Shown: positions 1,343-9,611 of the stretch, one piece after another | How positions within the stretch are numbered: the stretch's first letter is position 1 | Layout: every line of letters begins with the position of its first letter | Origin: Natrinema amylolyticum | Lineage (GTDB): Archaea > Halobacteriota > Halobacteria > Halobacteriales > Natrialbaceae | Assembly (NCBI RefSeq): GCF_020515625.1 | Contig: NZ_JAIWPJ010000002.1 | Span: 372,001 to 436,000, forward strand | Direction: 5' to 3' | DNA: 64,000 nucleotides | Made by a program: the position numbers and the translations under genes | The notes under the pieces: generated by a model | Database searches by the model: none | Seen by the model: the letters and a program-made list of their open reading frames with translations, nothing else | Told to the model about the DNA's origin: nothing

Positions 1343-2020
1343 GTGATCGAGGTGGCGCAACGACACCGAACCGCCGACGATGCCGAGGACGCTGCTACCG
1401 GCGACGACGGTGCCGATACCGTCGACGACAGTGCCGATACCGGCGACGGTGCCGAGGACGCCGATACCGACGAACAGCTCTCCAAAGGTGAAATATTCGA
1501 GGTGTTGCGGAACCAGCGACGTCGCTACGTCCTGCAGTATCTCAAGCAGGACGATCGCCCGGTCGAACTCGGCGACCTGGCCCAACAGGTCGCCGCCTGG
1601 GAGTACGAGACGACGCTCGAGGGAGTCACGCCCGAACAGCGAAAGCGGGTCTACACGACGCTCCAGCAGACGCACCTCCCGAAGATGGACGGGATCGGTA
1701 TCCTCCGATTCGACTCCGATCAGGGCGTCATCCAGGCGACCGAGCGAACCCGGGACATCAGCGTCTACCTCGAGATCGTTCCCGGTCGGGAGTTCGCGTG
1801 GCGGGAGCTGTACCTCTCGCTGGGCGCGATCAGTTGTGCGCTCGTCGCCGCTCTCTGGCTGGAAATCTATCCGTTGATCGCCCTGTCGAGCCTGACCTGG
1901 ACGGCCGTCATCGCGGTCACGTTTACGCTGACCGCGGTCGCACACATCTACCACGAGCGGAACATGCGCCTCGGCCACGGCGACCAGCCGCCCGAGCTCA
2001 GCTACGGGACCGACGAGTAA
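1343..2020 (+). CDS. Haloarchaeal winged-helix protein with two C-terminal membrane segments (DUF7344-like)
   Basis: The first 45 residues are a low-complexity acidic Asp/Ala/Gly/Thr region. A winged-helix-like domain follows (about 48-140), opening with LSKGEIFEVLRNQRRRYVLQYL, a pattern common to haloarchaeal DUF7344 transcription-factor-like proteins. Two hydrophobic segments (about 155-172 and 178-200) then suggest a membrane-anchored regulator. The start is uncertain: the frame offers only GTG at 1343 or GTG at 1352 before the conserved part. No partner gene is evident; neighbours point the same way but have their own spacers. The regulatory role is inferred from the fold only. Confidence 0.8.
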   Translation: MIEVAQRHRTADDAEDAATGDDGADTVDDSADTGDGAEDADTDEQLSKGEIFEVLRNQRRRYVLQYLKQDDRPVELGDLAQQVAAWEYETTLEGVTPEQRKRVYTTLQQTHLPKMDGIGILRFDSDQGVIQATERTRDISVYLEIVPGREFAWRELYLSLGAISCALVAALWLEIYPLIALSSLTWTAVIAVTFTLTAVAHIYHERNMRLGHGDQPPELSYGTDE

Positions 2021-2158
2021 GGCTCAGCGTCCGATGTGCGGGGCCGATGCGTCCACTGCATCTACTGCGGGGGAGAGTCCGACGGTCAGTCGGCCAGCCC
2101 GAACCGAGATGGAGTGTGATTCGTTCTCGTTCCACAATCGTCTCGGTCGTATCGTCAA

Positions 2159-2164
2159 CTTTTA
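2159..2164 (+). promoter_or_regulatory. Probable TATA box of the purine PRTase gene
   Basis: CTTTTA is centred about 27 bases before the ATG at 2189, the spacing expected when transcription starts at the first codon (leaderless mRNA). Confidence 0.45.
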
Positions 2165-2188
2165 CTCCGCTACCGTCCCACCGACGAC

Positions 2189-2758
2189 ATGGATCAGTTG
2201 AAGCAGTCGCTCCTCGAGGCGCCGATCATCGAGAAGAACGGCTATCACTACTTCGTCCATCCGATCAGCGACGGCGTCCCGAAGCTCGACCCGACACTCC
2301 TGCGCGAGATCGTCATTCGGATCATCCGAAAGGCGGAACTCGACGAGGTCGACCGGATCGTCACCCCCGCAGCGATGGGCATTCATATCTCGACTGCCGT
2401 CTCGCTGATGACCGACATTCCGCTGACGGTCATCCGCAAGCGCCAGTACGGCCTCGACGACGAGGTCGCGATCTCCCAGAAGACGGGCTATTCGGAGAAC
2501 GAGATGTACATCAACGACGTTCGCGAGGGCGAGCGCGTGCTCGTCCTCGACGACGTCCTCTCGACGGGCGGCACGCTCGCCTCGGTGCTCGCCGCGCTCG
2601 ATGAGATCGGCGCGGAGGTCGTCGATACCGTCGCAGTTATCAAGAAGGTCGGCGGGGAGAACAAGGTCGCTGATGCCGACTACGACGTCAAGACGCTGAT
2701 CAACGTCGACGTCGTCGACGGCGAGGTCGTCATCGTCGACGAGGAAGGCGATCAGTAA
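2189..2758 (+). CDS. hpt: Hypoxanthine/purine phosphoribosyltransferase, archaeal type
   Basis: Transfers ribose-5-phosphate from PRPP to a purine base (salvage). The 189-residue protein carries the PRPP-binding loop [13 protein letters not shown] at 117-129 and an upstream [12 protein letters not shown] segment (57-68) typical of the archaeal HPRT/APRT-like group. Haloarchaeal members are annotated as Hpt or Apt; the preferred base cannot be read from sequence. The ATG at 2189 fits the family's N-terminus and a TATA-like box 27 bases upstream. It is monocistronic by spacing. A second, different PRTase lies at 56876-57574. Confidence 0.9.
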
Positions 2759-2833
2759 GCAGCGTCGGTAATTCGTCGGTTTTCGGCCGATATACTCGGC
2801 CTTCGTACTGGCCTGTGTCTACCTATCACAAGG

Positions 2834-2840
2834 AATATAT
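2834..2840 (+). promoter_or_regulatory. TATA box of the peptide-importer operon
   Basis: AATATAT is centred about 28 bases before the ATG at 2865, so the transcript should begin at or next to the start codon. This supports ATG 2865 as the true start of the first gene of the operon. Confidence 0.55.
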
Positions 2841-2864
2841 CGTCACGATCTGAATCCTACACCG

Positions 2865-4511
2865 ATGTCAGGGAATCGCGTCGGGCCGGATGAACGCCGT
2901 CCGTTACGGCGGCGTTCGCTATTGAAGTGCGTGGGTACGGCCGGAATCGCCGGATTGGCCGGCTGTATTCGCAGCAACAGTGTCGAAGCCGATGGCCCGG
3001 CCGAGGAGCTGATTCAGGAGGGGTTCGCGGCGACCGGCATCGAGCCGCCGTTCGAAACGACGATCGCCGTCACCGAAGGCACCGAGCGAAGCCGCTTCGC
3101 TGAACTCCTCGCGGCCGAACTCGAGGACACCGGCTTCTTCGATATCTCGATCGCGGAATACAAGTGGACGACCTATCTCGACCTGCTGACCGCAGCGGCC
3201 GACGAGGGCGAAAACGCCCTCTTCATCGTCAGTTGGACCGGTGGCTGGGATCCCGACGACTACGTCAACATGCTGTTTCACTCGGACAGCCACACGCCCG
3301 GTGGGCTCAACGTGAACCACTACGCCGACGAGACCGTCGACGAGTACATCGACAGCGGACTCGAGGAGACGGTCACCGCCGAACGGGTCGAGATCTACCG
3401 GCGGCTACAGGAGCGGCTGGTCGCCGACTCGCCGGTCTCGGTCGTTCGATTCAGCGAAGCGGCACACGTCTGGGACGCCGACGCCGTCAGCGGCTGGCAG
3501 GCATATCCGCTCCAGACGGGAACGTACAACGCGGTGTACGCCCCCTGGGCGGACGTCTTCACGAAGCTCGAGGGGACCGACGAGTTCGTCGGCGATCTCG
3601 GGAGCGACATCTCGACGACCGATCCCGTGTCGATGAACGACACCGCCTCGAGTCAGGCGACACAGCTCGTCTACGAGGGGCTTACCGGTGTCGACTTCGA
3701 CGGGACGGTGCAGCCGGTCCTGGCCGACGGCTGGAAGCGACTCGACGCGACGAGTTACCGGTTTTCCCTCCGAGAGGGCGTCCGGTTTCACAACGGCGAG
3801 GAGCTCACCGCCGCCCACGTCAAGGGCTCGTTCGAACGCTACGAGGGCGAAGCGCGCGAGGCCGACGTCTTCGACTGGTACGACGGCAGCGAGATCGTCG
3901 ACGACTACACGATCGACATCGACTGCTGGCGGGAGTACGGCCCCTTCGAACGGCGACTGTTCGACCTTCCGATCGTCCCCATGGCGGCCATCGACGGTGA
4001 CCTCGACCTCGAGTCGACCCCGATCGGAACCGGGCCCTATCGGTTCGCCGACTATCGAGCGGGCGACGACTGTCGACTGGAGCGGTTCGACGACTACTGG
4101 TTCGAGGGCTCGCAGACGGTCCCGGCGACGGCACCGGTCGAGACCGTGCGACTCGAGATCATCACCGAAACGGCGTCGCGACAAGGCGCACTCGAGGCCG
4201 GAAATATCGACTTCAGTGACGGCGTGCCGCCGGCGAGTCTCGCGGATCTGGACGCCGACGACGCGTACGGCGTCGATCGCCACGTCGGCGGCGGGTTCGA
4301 TATGCTGATCTACCCGTGCTACCGCGATCCGTTTTCCAGCGACGCCGTTCGGCGGGGCTGTAACATGCTGATTCCGCGCGAGCGGATCGTCGAGGAGGTG
4401 TATCACGGGGTCGGCCGACCGGCCTACACGCCGATCTCGCCGCTGCTCGAGGCGTACACCGACGAGGCGTTCCAGAAACGAATCGCCGACGAATACGTCC
4501 GTTCGGACTGA
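2865..4511 (+). CDS. Peptide-type ABC importer substrate-binding lipoprotein with circularly permuted SBP_bac_5 order
   Basis: Extracytoplasmic ligand-binding protein of the importer encoded directly downstream. The N-terminus has a twin-arginine signal (arginine cluster at 11-17) and lipobox LAGC at 31-34, so the mature protein should be lipid-anchored outside the cell. Family motifs are in swapped order. Residues 45-232 match what is normally the C-terminal third: ETTIAV at 64-69, KWTTYLDLL near 100-108, WTGGWDPDDYVNMLF at 124-138, and the IYRRLQERLVADSP helix at 177-190. Residues 245-535 match the usual N-terminal two thirds: DISTTDP at 248-254, LVYEGLT at 268-274, SLREGVRFHNGEELTAAHV at 301-319, IGTGPYRF at 387-394, and the PRERIVEEVYHG helix at 504-515. 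The reading frame is continuous over 548 residues, a normal family length. The substrate is unknown. Confidence 0.93.
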   Translation: MSGNRVGPDERRPLRRRSLLKCVGTAGIAGLAGCIRSNSVEADGPAEELIQEGFAATGIEPPFETTIAVTEGTERSRFAELLAAELEDTGFFDISIAEYKWTTYLDLLTAAADEGENALFIVSWTGGWDPDDYVNMLFHSDSHTPGGLNVNHYADETVDEYIDSGLEETVTAERVEIYRRLQERLVADSPVSVVRFSEAAHVWDADAVSGWQAYPLQTGTYNAVYAPWADVFTKLEGTDEFVGDLGSDISTTDPVSMNDTASSQATQLVYEGLTGVDFDGTVQPVLADGWKRLDATSYRFSLREGVRFHNGEELTAAHVKGSFERYEGEAREADVFDWYDGSEIVDDYTIDIDCWREYGPFERRLFDLPIVPMAAIDGDLDLESTPIGTGPYRFADYRAGDDCRLERFDDYWFEGSQTVPATAPVETVRLEIITETASRQGALEAGNIDFSDGVPPASLADLDADDAYGVDRHVGGGFDMLIYPCYRDPFSSDAVRRGCNMLIPRERIVEEVYHGVGRPAYTPISPLLEAYTDEAFQKRIADEYVRSD

Positions 4512-4522
4512 CTCACTCATCA

Positions 4523-5470
4523 ATGTCGCTCGGTCGCTACGTCCTCACGCGGCTGTCGGTCACGGTTCCGGTCCTGCTCGGTGTCTCCGCGCTGACGTTC
4601 TCGTTCATCCACGCGCTCCCGGGCGATCCGATCGACGCCCTCGTCGGGTTTCGGAACGTCAGTCCCGCCACCGAGGCCGCGATCCGGGCCGAGTACCATC
4701 TCGACCGACCGGTCTGGGAACAGTACCTGCTGTGGCTGCGGGACGCACTGTTCCTCGAGTTCGGCGAATCGCCGATCACCGGTCGAAGCGTCACGGCGAC
4801 CGTCGGCCGGCGGCTGCCCGCGACGCTCGCCCTCGGCGGGGCCGCGTGGCTGCTCGCGCTCGCGATCGGCGTCCCCGCGGGCATCGTCGCCGCGGTCAGG
4901 CGCGGCGAGCCGGCCGACGAGTTCAGTCGGCTCGCCGCACTCGCCGGCATCGCGACGCCGAACTTCTGGCTCGGGCTCGTCCTCCTGCTCGTCTTCGGCG
5001 TCCGACTCGGCTGGGTTCGGGTGATCCCGCCGGACGCGCCGCTGGCGAGCCTCGCGATGGCGAAGTTCATGGTCCTGCCGACGATCACGCTCGGAACCGC
5101 CTCGGCCGCGCTCGTCACCCGGCTACTGCGGTCGTCGATGCTCCAGGAACTCGACGCGGCCTACGTTCGGACCGCGCGCGCGAAGGGACTGCGCGAGCGG
5201 ACGGTGATCCTGAAACACGTCCTGCGAAACGCCTTACTCCCGGTCGTGACGGTCGCCGGTCTCCAACTCGCGTTCCTGGTCGACGGCGCCGTCGTGGTCG
5301 AACAGATCTTCTCCTGGCCGGGCATGGGGCGGCTGCTGGTCCGGTCAATCCTGGAGCGAGACTACCCGGTCATTCAGGCCGCCGTCCTGCTCATCGGCGT
5401 CTCGATCGTCCTCGCGAACCTGCTCGTCGACGTCGTCTACGCGATACTCGACCCGCGCATTCGATACTAA
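4523..5470 (+). CDS. dppB: Peptide-type ABC importer permease, DppB-like
   Basis: First membrane subunit of the importer. It has 315 residues with a first helix at about 10-30 and five more after residue 95. The cytoplasmic EAA loop for ATPase contact is seen in AKGLRERTVILKHVLRNALL, followed by the strongly conserved EQIFSWPGMGRLL near the C-terminus. It starts 12 bases after the binding-protein gene and is followed after 3 bases by the second permease, so it belongs to one operon. Length and motifs are typical of DppB/OppB. Confidence 0.94.
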   Translation: MSLGRYVLTRLSVTVPVLLGVSALTFSFIHALPGDPIDALVGFRNVSPATEAAIRAEYHLDRPVWEQYLLWLRDALFLEFGESPITGRSVTATVGRRLPATLALGGAAWLLALAIGVPAGIVAAVRRGEPADEFSRLAALAGIATPNFWLGLVLLLVFGVRLGWVRVIPPDAPLASLAMAKFMVLPTITLGTASAALVTRLLRSSMLQELDAAYVRTARAKGLRERTVILKHVLRNALLPVVTVAGLQLAFLVDGAVVVEQIFSWPGMGRLLVRSILERDYPVIQAAVLLIGVSIVLANLLVDVVYAILDPRIRY

Positions 5471-5473
5471 TTC

Positions 5474-6562
5474 ATGAGCGACCGACCACCGACCACCGAC
5501 CGCGGCCGGATTCACATCGTCGGCTTCGACGACGCGGAGTCGGACGGCCGCGGAGACGCAGACTCGGCGGGCCGCAGAGACGCGGACTCGAGCGGCGATG
5601 ACGCCGACTCACCGACGGCGACGATGGGAACGTCCGAGGGACGGGGACGCCGCCGCCTCGAGGAGGCGTGGCACCGGTTCCACCGGAATCGAACGGCGAT
5701 GGTCGGGCTGGCGATCATCGTCGTCATGGCGCTGCTCGCGGTCTTCGCTCGCCCGATCGAGGTCTCGACGGCGGAGTACACGATCACGCTCCAGCCCGTG
5801 TCGCTGGCTCCGTACGATCCCGCCCGACAGTTCGTCGGCCCGACGAACGCCCCGCCGTCGTGGGACCATCCGTTCGGCACTGACTGGGCGGGCCGCGATC
5901 AGTTATCTCGAGTGCTCGTCGGCGGCCGCTACACGCTGAGTGTCGGCCTCATCGCCGTCTCGCTGGCGCTGTGTATCGGGGTTCCGCTGGGCGCGATCGC
6001 CGGCTATTTCGGCGGCTGGGTCGACGAAATCATCATGCGAGTCGTCGACGTGCTGTACGCCTTTCCGTTCCTGGTCCTCGCGATCGGGATCGTCGCGATC
6101 CTCGGACGGGGCTTCTGGAAGCTGGTAGTGGCGCTCGTCGTCACCGGCTGGATCGGCTACGCCAGACTGTTGCGCGGCGAAGTCCTCTCCGTCCGCGAAC
6201 GCGAGTACGTGACGGCGGCCAGGGCGCTCGGCGTCCCCGACCGAACGATCGTCCGCAGGCACGTCGTCCCGAACGCAATCGCGCCCGTCGTCGTGCAGGC
6301 GACGCTCAACGTCGGTACGGTCGTCCTCACGGCGGCAGCGCTCGGCTTCCTCGGACTCGGCCCGGAGTCCGGGGCCGCCGAGTGGGGCGCGATGCTCTCC
6401 CGAGGCCGGGACTCGCTCGTCCAGGGTCACTGGCACGTCACGGTCTTCCCCGGGCTCGCGATCTTCCTGTTCGTGCTGGCGATCAACCTCGTGGGCGACG
6501 GCATCAACGACGCGCTCGATCCCCATCGGGACGCGAGCGACGAGCGGAGGCGGATGCGCTGA
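5474..6562 (+). CDS. dppC: Peptide-type ABC importer permease, DppC-like
   Basis: Second membrane subunit, 362 residues. The first 55 residues are a hydrophilic Asp/Ser/Arg-rich tail that bacterial DppC lacks. The OppC-type N-terminal segment (WHRFHRNRTAMVGLAIIVVM) and the BPD-type permease domain follow. The DHPFGTDWAGRDQLSRVL motif and the EAA loop (YVTAARALGVPDRTIVRRHV) are intact. It overlaps the next ATPase gene by one base (TGATG junction at 6560-6564), indicating translational coupling. Confidence 0.94.
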   Translation: MSDRPPTTDRGRIHIVGFDDAESDGRGDADSAGRRDADSSGDDADSPTATMGTSEGRGRRRLEEAWHRFHRNRTAMVGLAIIVVMALLAVFARPIEVSTAEYTITLQPVSLAPYDPARQFVGPTNAPPSWDHPFGTDWAGRDQLSRVLVGGRYTLSVGLIAVSLALCIGVPLGAIAGYFGGWVDEIIMRVVDVLYAFPFLVLAIGIVAILGRGFWKLVVALVVTGWIGYARLLRGEVLSVREREYVTAARALGVPDRTIVRRHVVPNAIAPVVVQATLNVGTVVLTAAALGFLGLGPESGAAEWGAMLSRGRDSLVQGHWHVTVFPGLAIFLFVLAINLVGDGINDALDPHRDASDERRRMR

Positions 6563-7674
6563 TGGCGCTGCTCGAGGTCGAGGACCTCGTCGTCCAGTTC
6601 TACACCGACGACGGCGTGGTCCGGGCCGTCGACGGCATCAGCTACGAGATCCGTGCTGGCGAGACGGTCGGACTGGTCGGCGAGAGCGGGGCCGGCAAGA
6701 GCGTCGCCACCCTCGCGCTCCTCCGCCTGATCCGCGAGCCCGGCGAGATCGTCGGCGGCGAGATCCGGTTCGACGGGCGGGACTTCCTCGAGTGCTCGGC
6801 CGACGAACTCCGGGAGATCCGCGGCAACGACGTCGCGATGGTGTTTCAGGACGCCGACGCCGCGCTCAATCCGGTCTACACCGTCGGCGAACAGATCGCC
6901 GAAGCGATTCGCGCCCACGAGGCCGTCACCGACCGCGAGGCCCGCGATCGGGCGATCGCCCTCCTCGAGCGGGTCGGGATCCCGGACGCGACCGCACGAT
7001 ATTCCGACTACCCCCACGAGTTCTCCGGGGGAATGCAACAGCGGGTCGTCATCGCGATGGCGCTGTCCTGCGATCCCGCCCTCCTGCTCTGTGACGAACC
7101 GACGACGGGCCTCGACGTCACCGTTCAGGCCGGCATTCTCGAATTGCTCGCGGACCTCGCCCGGGAGTCCGACACGGCGATCCAGCTCGTCACGCACGAC
7201 CTCGGGGTCGTCGCGGAACTGTGCGATCGTGTGCTGGTCCAGTACGCCGGGCAGCTCGTCGAACGTGCGCCGGTCGAAGAGTTGTACTACGATCCCAAAC
7301 ACCCCTACACCGTCGGACTGCTGGCGTCGATTCCCCGCCTCGGCGACGATCGCGACCGCCTCGCGACGGTGCCCGGGACGATGCCGAGCCTCGTCGACCC
7401 GCCGACGGGCTGTCGGTTTCATCCGCGCTGTCCCTACGCCGAGGAGGCGTGTGCCCGGCGGGACCCGCCGCTCGTCGAGTCCGAATCGAGGACGCCGGCC
7501 GCCGATACCGGCCCCGACGCGCACCTCGCCGCCTGTCTCGAGTACACCGGCGACCTCGAGGACGGGCTGGAGTACGAGGTGCAGGTGCGAGACGACGAGC
7601 GCGAGGACGAGACGGACGATTCGCGTCGCGACCGGGAGTCCGGGGACCGGGATCATCGAGGTGAGACGCGATGA
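6562..7674 (+). CDS. dppD: Peptide-type ABC importer ATPase, DppD-like
   Basis: First ATPase subunit, 370 residues from the ATG at 6562. The frame is open further upstream, but the domain begins at [13 protein letters not shown] and this ATG overlaps the stop of dppC. Walker A is GESGAGKS, the signature is FSGGMQQR, and Walker B ends LLLCDEP with the switch His in LVTHDL. The C-terminal oligopeptide-transporter motif [14 protein letters not shown] is present, then an acidic/basic tail of about 45 residues. It overlaps the next gene by 4 bases. Confidence 0.94.
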
Positions 7675-8987
7675 CGGCCGACGACGCCCCGCTGCTCCAG
7701 GCCGAGGGGCTCGAGACCCACTACTCCACCGCCGACGGGGTCCTCGATCGGCTGCTCGGGCGCGACGAAACGGTCCGTGCGGTCGACGGCGTCGACCTCG
7801 AGATCCGGGACGGCGAGACGCTCGGGCTGGTCGGCGAGAGCGGCTGCGGCAAGACGACCCTCGGCCGGACGCTCCTCGGGCTGCTCGAGCCGACCGGCGG
7901 CTCGGTCACGTATCGGGGCACCGAGGTCACGGACTGCTCCCGAGCCGACCTCCGAGAGCTGCGGACCGAGATCCAGTACGTCTTCCAGAACCCCACGGCC
8001 AGCCTCGATCCGCGACTGACGGTCGGCGAAATCGTCGGCGAGGCCCTCGCGGTCCACGATATCGTTCCGCCCGACCGCCGCGACGAGCGCGTCCGTGACC
8101 TGCTCGAGACGGTCGGGCTGCGGGCCGACCACGCGCACAGGTACCCCCACGAGTTCTCGGGCGGCCAGCGCCAGCGGATCGGCATCGCCCGCGCGCTCGC
8201 CGTCGAACCCGAACTCGTCGTCTGCGACGAACCCGTCTCCGCGCTCGACGTCTCGGTACAGGCCCGGATTCTCAACCTATTGTCCGACCTGCAGGACGAG
8301 TTCGGCCTCTCGTATCTGTTCATCGCCCACGACCTCTCGGTCGTCGAGCACGTCGCCGACCGCGTGGCCGTGATGTACCTCGGCGAGATCGTCGAAACCG
8401 GACCGACCGCCGCGGTCTTCGACGACCCGTCCCACCCCTACACGGAAGCGCTGCTGTCGGCGATCCCCGAACCCGACCCCTGCTGGGAGGGCGACCGGAT
8501 CGTCCTCGAGGGGTCGGTCCCCTCGCCGACCGATCCGCCCGCCGGCTGCCGGTTCCACACTCGCTGTCCGAAAGTCATCCCGCCCGCGGCGTTCGACCTC
8601 GAGACGGCGACCGTCCGCGGGATCATGTCGCTCCGGACCCGTCTGGCCGAGGCGGACGCCGACGCGGGGCTCGAGGCGCTGTGCTCGCGATCCGACGACG
8701 CGGCGGATCTCACTGCGGCGATCCGCGACGCCCACGACATTCCCCGGCGGCTCCGCGATTCGGACGCCGACGCCGTCCTCTCGACGGCGCTCGAGACGGC
8801 CGCCGTCGGCGACCTCGAGGGGGCGCGACGGCGTCTCGCATCGGCGTTCGAGACGCCCTGCGAGACGACGGAGCCAGAACTGCAGGGGAGTTCGGATCAC
8901 CACCCGATCGCTTGCCACCGGTTCGACGACCGATTCGACGCCGATCCCGAGTTCGACGCGGACCGAACGTCAGCACATGATCAGTAG
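7671..8987 (+). CDS. dppF: Peptide-type ABC importer ATPase, DppF-like, with enlarged C-terminal domain
   Basis: Second ATPase subunit, 438 residues. Walker [10 protein letters not shown] is at 55-63, the FSGGQRQR signature at 162-169, Walker B VVCDEP at 183-188 and the switch His at 220. The C-terminal motif begins as usual with CRFHTRCP (293-300), but its closing ACHR appears only at 414-417. About 110 mostly helical, charged residues are inserted between the Cys-containing halves, where relatives usually have 20-30. It ends the five-gene operon. Confidence 0.92.
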
Positions 8988-9080: not shown

Positions 9081-9611
9081 ATGAAACGAATCTACGACTC
9101 CGACGCGCTCGAGCGCGCGGACGATGACCCGTTCGCTCCGGAGACGGCCGCGGGCGACGACCGCGATCCGCGCACGATCGACTGGGCGGCGTTCAGCCAC
9201 GCGTTCGCGCCGGTCGCGGTGCGCCACTGGGCGATCGACGTTACCGTCTCGACCGAGAAACGACGGTACGACGCCGGCGAACCGGTCGACATCGTCGTCG
9301 AGTTTCGCAATCGGTTCCCGTTTCCGATTCGAATTCGAACCGACTCGCCGAACCGCTGGTACTGGGCCATCGACGGCCTCCGCGACGCCTCAGAGTGCCC
9401 GCGATCGGTTCCCGACCGATCCGACGCGTTCTCCTTCGCCCGAAACGAACGCAAACGCTTCCGTCGGCAGTGGTCACAGCGAATTCAGGTGGCCGACGAC
9501 GCGTGGGAGCGCGTCGATCCCGGTACCTACGCGATCAGCGGGAGCGTCGCTCGCACGGACGCCGCCGACCGAGGACTCGCCGATCGGACCGAGATCGAGA
9601 TCACCGATTGA
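9081..9611 (+). CDS. Haloarchaeal protein with a BsuPI-like beta-sandwich domain
   Basis: 176 residues, no signal peptide. Residues 50-175 alternate strands and turns: an opening DVTVSTEKRRYDAGEPVDI, a central IVVEFRNRFPFPI, and a terminal DPGTYAISGSV. This pattern resembles the intracellular proteinase inhibitor BsuPI fold found in many haloarchaeal proteins of unknown role. The first 45 residues are acidic and probably disordered. Its 3' end overlaps that of the opposite-strand HalOD1 gene by 11 bases. Function is unknown; the fold assignment is by pattern only. Confidence 0.72.
   Translation: MKRIYDSDALERADDDPFAPETAAGDDRDPRTIDWAAFSHAFAPVAVRHWAIDVTVSTEKRRYDAGEPVDIVVEFRNRFPFPIRIRTDSPNRWYWAIDGLRDASECPRSVPDRSDAFSFARNERKRFRRQWSQRIQVADDAWERVDPGTYAISGSVARTDAADRGLADRTEIEITD

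Follow-up and report, generated by a model that had tools for sequence, protein, structure and literature searches.

In nature, proteins are seldom circularly permuted by a cut inside a folded unit. Among binding proteins of ABC importers, the case found described is that of TpMglB-2 (Tp0684) of Treponema pallidum and its relatives, naturally permuted cluster B sugar-binding proteins for which the designation "Type Ic / Cluster Bc" was proposed (PMC4990184). In TpMglB-2, the break in the chain lies between N-lobe strands and makes a fourth hinge crossing necessary, and the reordered part is without clear sequence homology (PMC4990184). No report of a permuted cluster C or haloarchaeal substrate-binding protein (SBP) was found in the open-access literature, most subscription papers lying outside the search; in PMC2588589, the SBP_bac_5 family (Pfam PF00496) appears just in a versatility table. 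The protein described here is a cluster C case, whereas the known permuted protein belongs to another fold class. Both are natural circular permutations of ABC-importer binding proteins and occur mostly in tethered ones (PMC4990184), but TpMglB-2 has the cluster B fold and binds sugar (PMC4990184), and clear homology to ordinary relatives extends to both halves of the protein described here.

All coordinates below, unless another locus is named, refer to the window, that is, the whole analysed stretch of 64,000 nt from Natrinema amylolyticum. Positions 2865-4511 of its forward strand contain a single uninterrupted frame of 548 amino acids, the product of which is hereafter called the window protein. 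When the entire protein was scanned against Pfam, SBP_bac_5 alone was matched (E 2.9e-58, 198 bits vs. a cut-off of 32.4), in two stretches, of which the stronger placed residues 281-536 on model positions 1-259. Scanned by itself, the second half again matched model 1-259 (E 1.6e-51), and in the first half residues 56-141 matched model 275-364 (E 9e-6). Because model 275-364 precedes model 1-259, the window protein is a permuted relative of the family, and ordinary collinear membership was rejected. Two control proteins, E. coli DppA and the close ordinary-order relative L047, each gave one collinear stretch. A circular permutation had been proposed in a first-pass annotation made from the letters alone, which predicted two SBP_bac_5 matches with the C-terminal model part first; precisely this was obtained, and the single collinear match named there as contrary evidence did not appear. 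The motifs on which that proposal was built were also located at the residues given for them.

The swap was equally evident in pairwise searches. Against L047, query residues 240-544 aligned to 39-343 (49% identity, E 2e-95) and residues 46-237 to 351-542 (42%, E 8e-49). With phmmer, residues 247-534 aligned to positions 52-339 of PDB chain 5u4o and residues 55-191 to positions 355-486. E. coli DppA, OppA and GsiB, together with 5u4o, appear to be homologous to the window protein over both halves and to share its fold elements. No PDB chain matched the permuted proteins over their whole length, either by sequence or in structure comparisons.

The anatomy of the join was determined with a profile built from 12 ordinary-order relatives, whose identity to the window protein was 40-50% over the ancestral N-terminal part and 29-42% over the ancestral C-terminal part. 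This profile matched the window protein in three pieces. The signal region came first (model 25-53 on residues 10-38). It was followed by the ancestral C-terminal segment, residues 46-236 (3000-3572, forward strand; model 393-583, Pfam 275-364), whose best matches were at positions of approximately 350-600 of the relatives L046-L057. The ancestral N-terminal segment, residues 237-548 (3573-4508, forward strand; model 78-389, Pfam 1-259), now stands last. The old C-terminus and the old mature N-terminus meet at residues 236/237 (3570-3575, forward strand); in 34 family members, the linker at this join had a median length of 0 residues, and the chain ended within a few residues of the point where the C-terminal part begins. 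In the window protein, the C-terminus (model 389) stops just before the helix that now occupies residues 45-57. No segment is missing or duplicated, the C-terminus falling at model 389 and the new start at 392-393. The cut lies approximately 20 residues past PISPLL, immediately before the helix AEELIQEGF.

Compared with ordinary SBPs, the halves are thus reversed, the mature N-terminus corresponds approximately to residue 357 of the DppA precursor, and the ancestral termini are directly joined. Both segments are homologous to one and the same ordinary-order protein, their order is swapped, and the new termini are internal to the ancestral chain. Positions 2865-4511 of the window are confirmed to encode an SBP_bac_5 (cluster C, DppA/OppA-type) substrate-binding lipoprotein that is truly circularly permuted. 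The same arrangement could in principle have arisen by fusion of an unrelated C-type segment in front of a truncated SBP, and the match of the first half to Pfam alone, which is below the gathering score, would agree with such a chimera. This is very improbable, since the two halves, searched separately, both returned the same 12 ordinary-order proteins first, at the identities given above, and jointly restore a complete protein without loss and without overlap.

The permuted order was found to be kept in approximately 30 other genomes, which belong to the same genus, to five further genera of its family and to two genera of another family; the complete chromosome of Natrinema zhouii is one of them, and an ortholog is present in N. 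gari (L123). Therefore, the haloarchaeal relatives suspected in the first-pass annotation do exist, and its reservation that the two parts might be separate proteins brought together by a sequencing error was not upheld. The permuted family evolves under purifying selection, dN/dS being 0.23-0.34 overall and alike in both halves. The only sign of an assembly or sequencing artefact, or of two neighbouring genes read as one, was a frame broken near the join in Natrinema versiforme. However, the break is seen in that assembly only, and it contains CTGTCTCTTATACACAT, which resembles a transposase adapter. Because we take CTGTCTCTTATACACAT to be a transposase-adapter end, the broken frame was read as an artefact of that one assembly. 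The single frame in approximately 30 genomes, one of them a complete chromosome, and the presence of one signal peptide only argue against such an error in the window, and codon-position GC is uniform along 2865-4511, which indicates that there is no frameshift at the join. An artefactual origin of the permuted order is therefore next to impossible. The break in Natrinema versiforme JCM 10478 is at approximately 6612-6632 of locus L126, where CTGTCTCTTATACACATN interrupts the gene and has the look of a transposase adapter left behind in a publicly available assembly.

The ancestral C-terminal segment is preceded by a Tat signal peptide with a lipobox, RRRSLLKCVGTAGIAGLAGC (2865-2966, forward strand), with the pattern RRRSLL...GLAGC. 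The predicted lipid-anchor residue is Cys34 of the lipobox GLAGC. Residues R16, R17, G33 and C34 were unchanged in 26 of 26 family members, so the signal that had been placed on the new N-terminus from the letters alone was recovered with its key residues invariant. Having both a twin-arginine motif and a lipobox cysteine, the window protein would fit the haloarchaeal Tat lipoproteins.

A structure model of the window protein was built by AlphaFold2 with the 26 family sequences. The mean pLDDT was 89.6 and the pTM 0.85, with pLDDT values above 90 across the join; everything except the signal region was modelled confidently, residues 45-236 included. In a sequential structure comparison, ordinary SBPs superposed with their N-terminal residues (approximately 330) on window residues 233-548 only, with Z-scores of up to 25.2, which is the outcome to be expected if a permuted protein is compared by sequential alignment. 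For example, VIA-align placed residues 233-548 on residues 3-308 of 1uqw with a Z-score of 25.2 and an rmsd of 2.1 over 298 residues. The permuted chain would apparently still adopt the clamp fold of its relatives. The sequence, the confident structure model and the conservation of the order thus all bear out the permutation. Identity with the Type Ic / Cluster Bc class was considered and rejected, the window protein being an SBP_bac_5 protein by sequence and its second half superposing on cluster C structures.

Like ordinary cluster C SBPs, the window protein is encoded in a dppBCDF operon setting and carries a signal peptide for export. Directly 3' of its gene, on the same strand, follow genes for a dppB-like permease (4523-5470; BPD_transp_1), a dppC-like permease (5474-6562), which is kept beside both permuted and ordinary-order SBPs, a dppD-like ATPase (6562-7674; ABC_tran and oligo_HPY, start located) and a dppF-like ATPase (7671-8987), whose position is conserved. 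The presence of these domains agrees with the earlier reading that the gene heads a normal dppBCDF operon. A small conserved gene without a Pfam match (9081-9611, forward strand) lies 3' of dppF in the permuted operons and in many ordinary-order ones, and its product is possibly an unrecognised transporter partner. The order SBP-dppB-dppC-dppD-dppF-companion is common to the permuted loci and many ordinary-order loci, and the dppB-like permease is 56-64% identical to the permease adjoining ordinary-order SBPs. Taken together, this suggests that the SBP was permuted in place within an existing operon. Since permuted and ordinary-order proteins occur in the same type of operon at 40-50% identity, the states before and after the event can be compared directly. 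Just upstream of the SBP gene, a phosphoribosyltransferase gene (2189-2758) and a flavoprotein-like gene (55-1227) were observed, both conserved in Natrinema and several relatives; a bearing on the ligand, for example purines, is conceivable.

Considering all of these data, we assign a probability of roughly 0.93 to the reading that the window protein is a cluster C SBP circularly permuted in nature, which is exported by the Tat pathway, carries its lipid anchor at the new N-terminus and supplies the DppBCDF-type importer encoded in the same operon. The permuted chain would re-form the usual two-lobed Venus flytrap, bind a peptide-like ligand and dock on DppBC in the usual way. The rearrangement could have started at the locus itself with a repetition, in frame, of the mature region, after which the first N-terminal part would have been lost and the last C-terminal part truncated. 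A tandemly duplicated intermediate was sought in all examined ORFs, and none was found.

In E. coli DppA, the residues contacting the dipeptide are R383 and D436 (PMC12136057). Their equivalents are absent from the window family and also from its ordinary-order relatives, which makes a DppA-like mode of ligand binding improbable. Lack of these contacts would agree with a permuted protein that is degenerate or has been repurposed, for instance as a receptor or a scaffold, and that does not serve DppBCDF import. Such a loss of function is unlikely because the sequence is under constraint, the same residues are lacking in ordinary-order relatives too, and the gene occupies the SBP slot beside intact dppBCDF with no rival SBP at the locus. 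Service to the importer of its own operon thus remains the preferred reading.

The window protein was not the only permuted member of its superfamily; the first-pass annotation had overlooked the further permuted proteins of the genome, the multiple origins with differing cut points and the alphaproteobacterial cases. Its genome encodes ten SBP_bac_5 proteins, three of which, besides the window protein, were permuted: L005 (ORF 1432-3372, reverse strand) and the two adjoining proteins L006 (ORF 1486-3306, reverse strand) and L007 (ORF 1492-3273, reverse strand). Of 146 haloarchaeal genomes, 79 contained relatives of L007, and the permuted proteins L005 and L130 (Halalkalicoccus jeotgali) have widespread full-length relatives. 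An AlphaFold2 model of L007 (pLDDT 79.5, pTM 0.80) superposed on ordinary SBPs over residues 215-591 with a Z-score of 22. In archaea outside the haloarchaeal order, nearly all matches were, as with ordinary-order proteins, to the second half only; the clear exception was L178 (ORF 2733-4496, reverse strand), a permuted SBP that ends in a PGF-CTERM membrane anchor. The bacterial survey covered plasmids, and permuted SBPs were found on alphaproteobacterial ones: L127 (3866-5509), L128 (3683-5359), L136 (896-2644), L137 (4917-6602) and L129. In the annotated cases L127, L128 and L137, genes for an M28 peptidase and for permease and ATPase components adjoin the SBP gene.

The number of origins was studied with a tree in which the permuted sequences were rotated back and 88 proteins were aligned; a quick method was used, with SH-aLRT supports and no bootstrap. 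Ordinary-order relatives enclosed the window family with a support of 100, at a great distance from a second permuted clade. The latter, separate clade united the remaining permuted proteins except L178, had 41 members (support 96) and includes L005, L006, L007, L130, L139 of Natrialba magadii and the alphaproteobacterial L127, L128, L136 and L137. This second clade belongs to the same superfamily as the window protein and shows the same segment swap, and permease and ATPase genes mostly adjoin its members where the operons were read (L127-L131, L137 and L139). In contrast to the window protein, to which its members are approximately 24% identical, it has a separate origin in the tree, and its cut lies approximately 18 residues later, after one helix rather than before it: the last aligned residue corresponds to 1dpp residue 328 in the window protein and to residue 346 in L007. 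The second clade is older than the window clade and extends across haloarchaea and alphaproteobacterial plasmids. Within it, L127, L128, L136 and L137 group with the haloarchaeal L120, a placement suggestive of gene transfer between the two domains of life.

The wide occurrence of permuted proteins in haloarchaea, with all cut points within approximately 20 residues, might be taken to reflect one ancient permutation of SBP_bac_5 from which some lineages later returned to the ordinary order. However, when all permuted proteins were forced into one clade, the AU test on a 36-row set rejected the constraint (p-AU 3e-84), whereas a constraint that held only the window family together was not rejected (p 0.61, with a slightly higher likelihood). 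The nesting of the window clade among ordinary-order proteins and the position of the cuts on opposite sides of one helix also speak against a single event, and reversions would require exact recovery of the ancestral termini. No traces of a permuted join were seen within ordinary-order relatives. A single ancient permutation is accordingly improbable. The AU rejection and the differing cut points support at least two origins of the permutation in SBP_bac_5, and L178, the tree position of which is unsure, may represent a third.

Domain II of DppA comprises approximately residues 261-478 of the mature protein. From an alignment in DppA numbering and these domain limits, both cut points would fall in the second lobe and the ancestral termini on the first, in which case the lipid tether would be attached to the C-lobe instead of the N-lobe. 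It is conceivable, though rather doubtful, that DppA/OppA-class proteins were permuted repeatedly in independent events, each time within approximately 20 residues of one spot in the second lobe, because such a shift of the tether, or of the export end, aids docking or ligand capture. Judging from their sequences, the alphaproteobacterial permuted proteins carry apparently ordinary cleavable signals without a lipobox, and tethering therefore cannot be the whole reason for the permutation. Recurrence at almost the same site makes it possible to test whether it matters on which lobe the membrane tether sits.

The permutation also has a consequence for annotation, since collinear models span only part of permuted SBP_bac_5 proteins. 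By our own count, in which not every case was verified, approximately 34 of 87 above-cut-off SBP_bac_5 matches in 15 haloarchaeal genomes stop at the points of permutation, at model positions 257-288. In several of these, the missing piece, model 272-364, was located upstream on the same strand.
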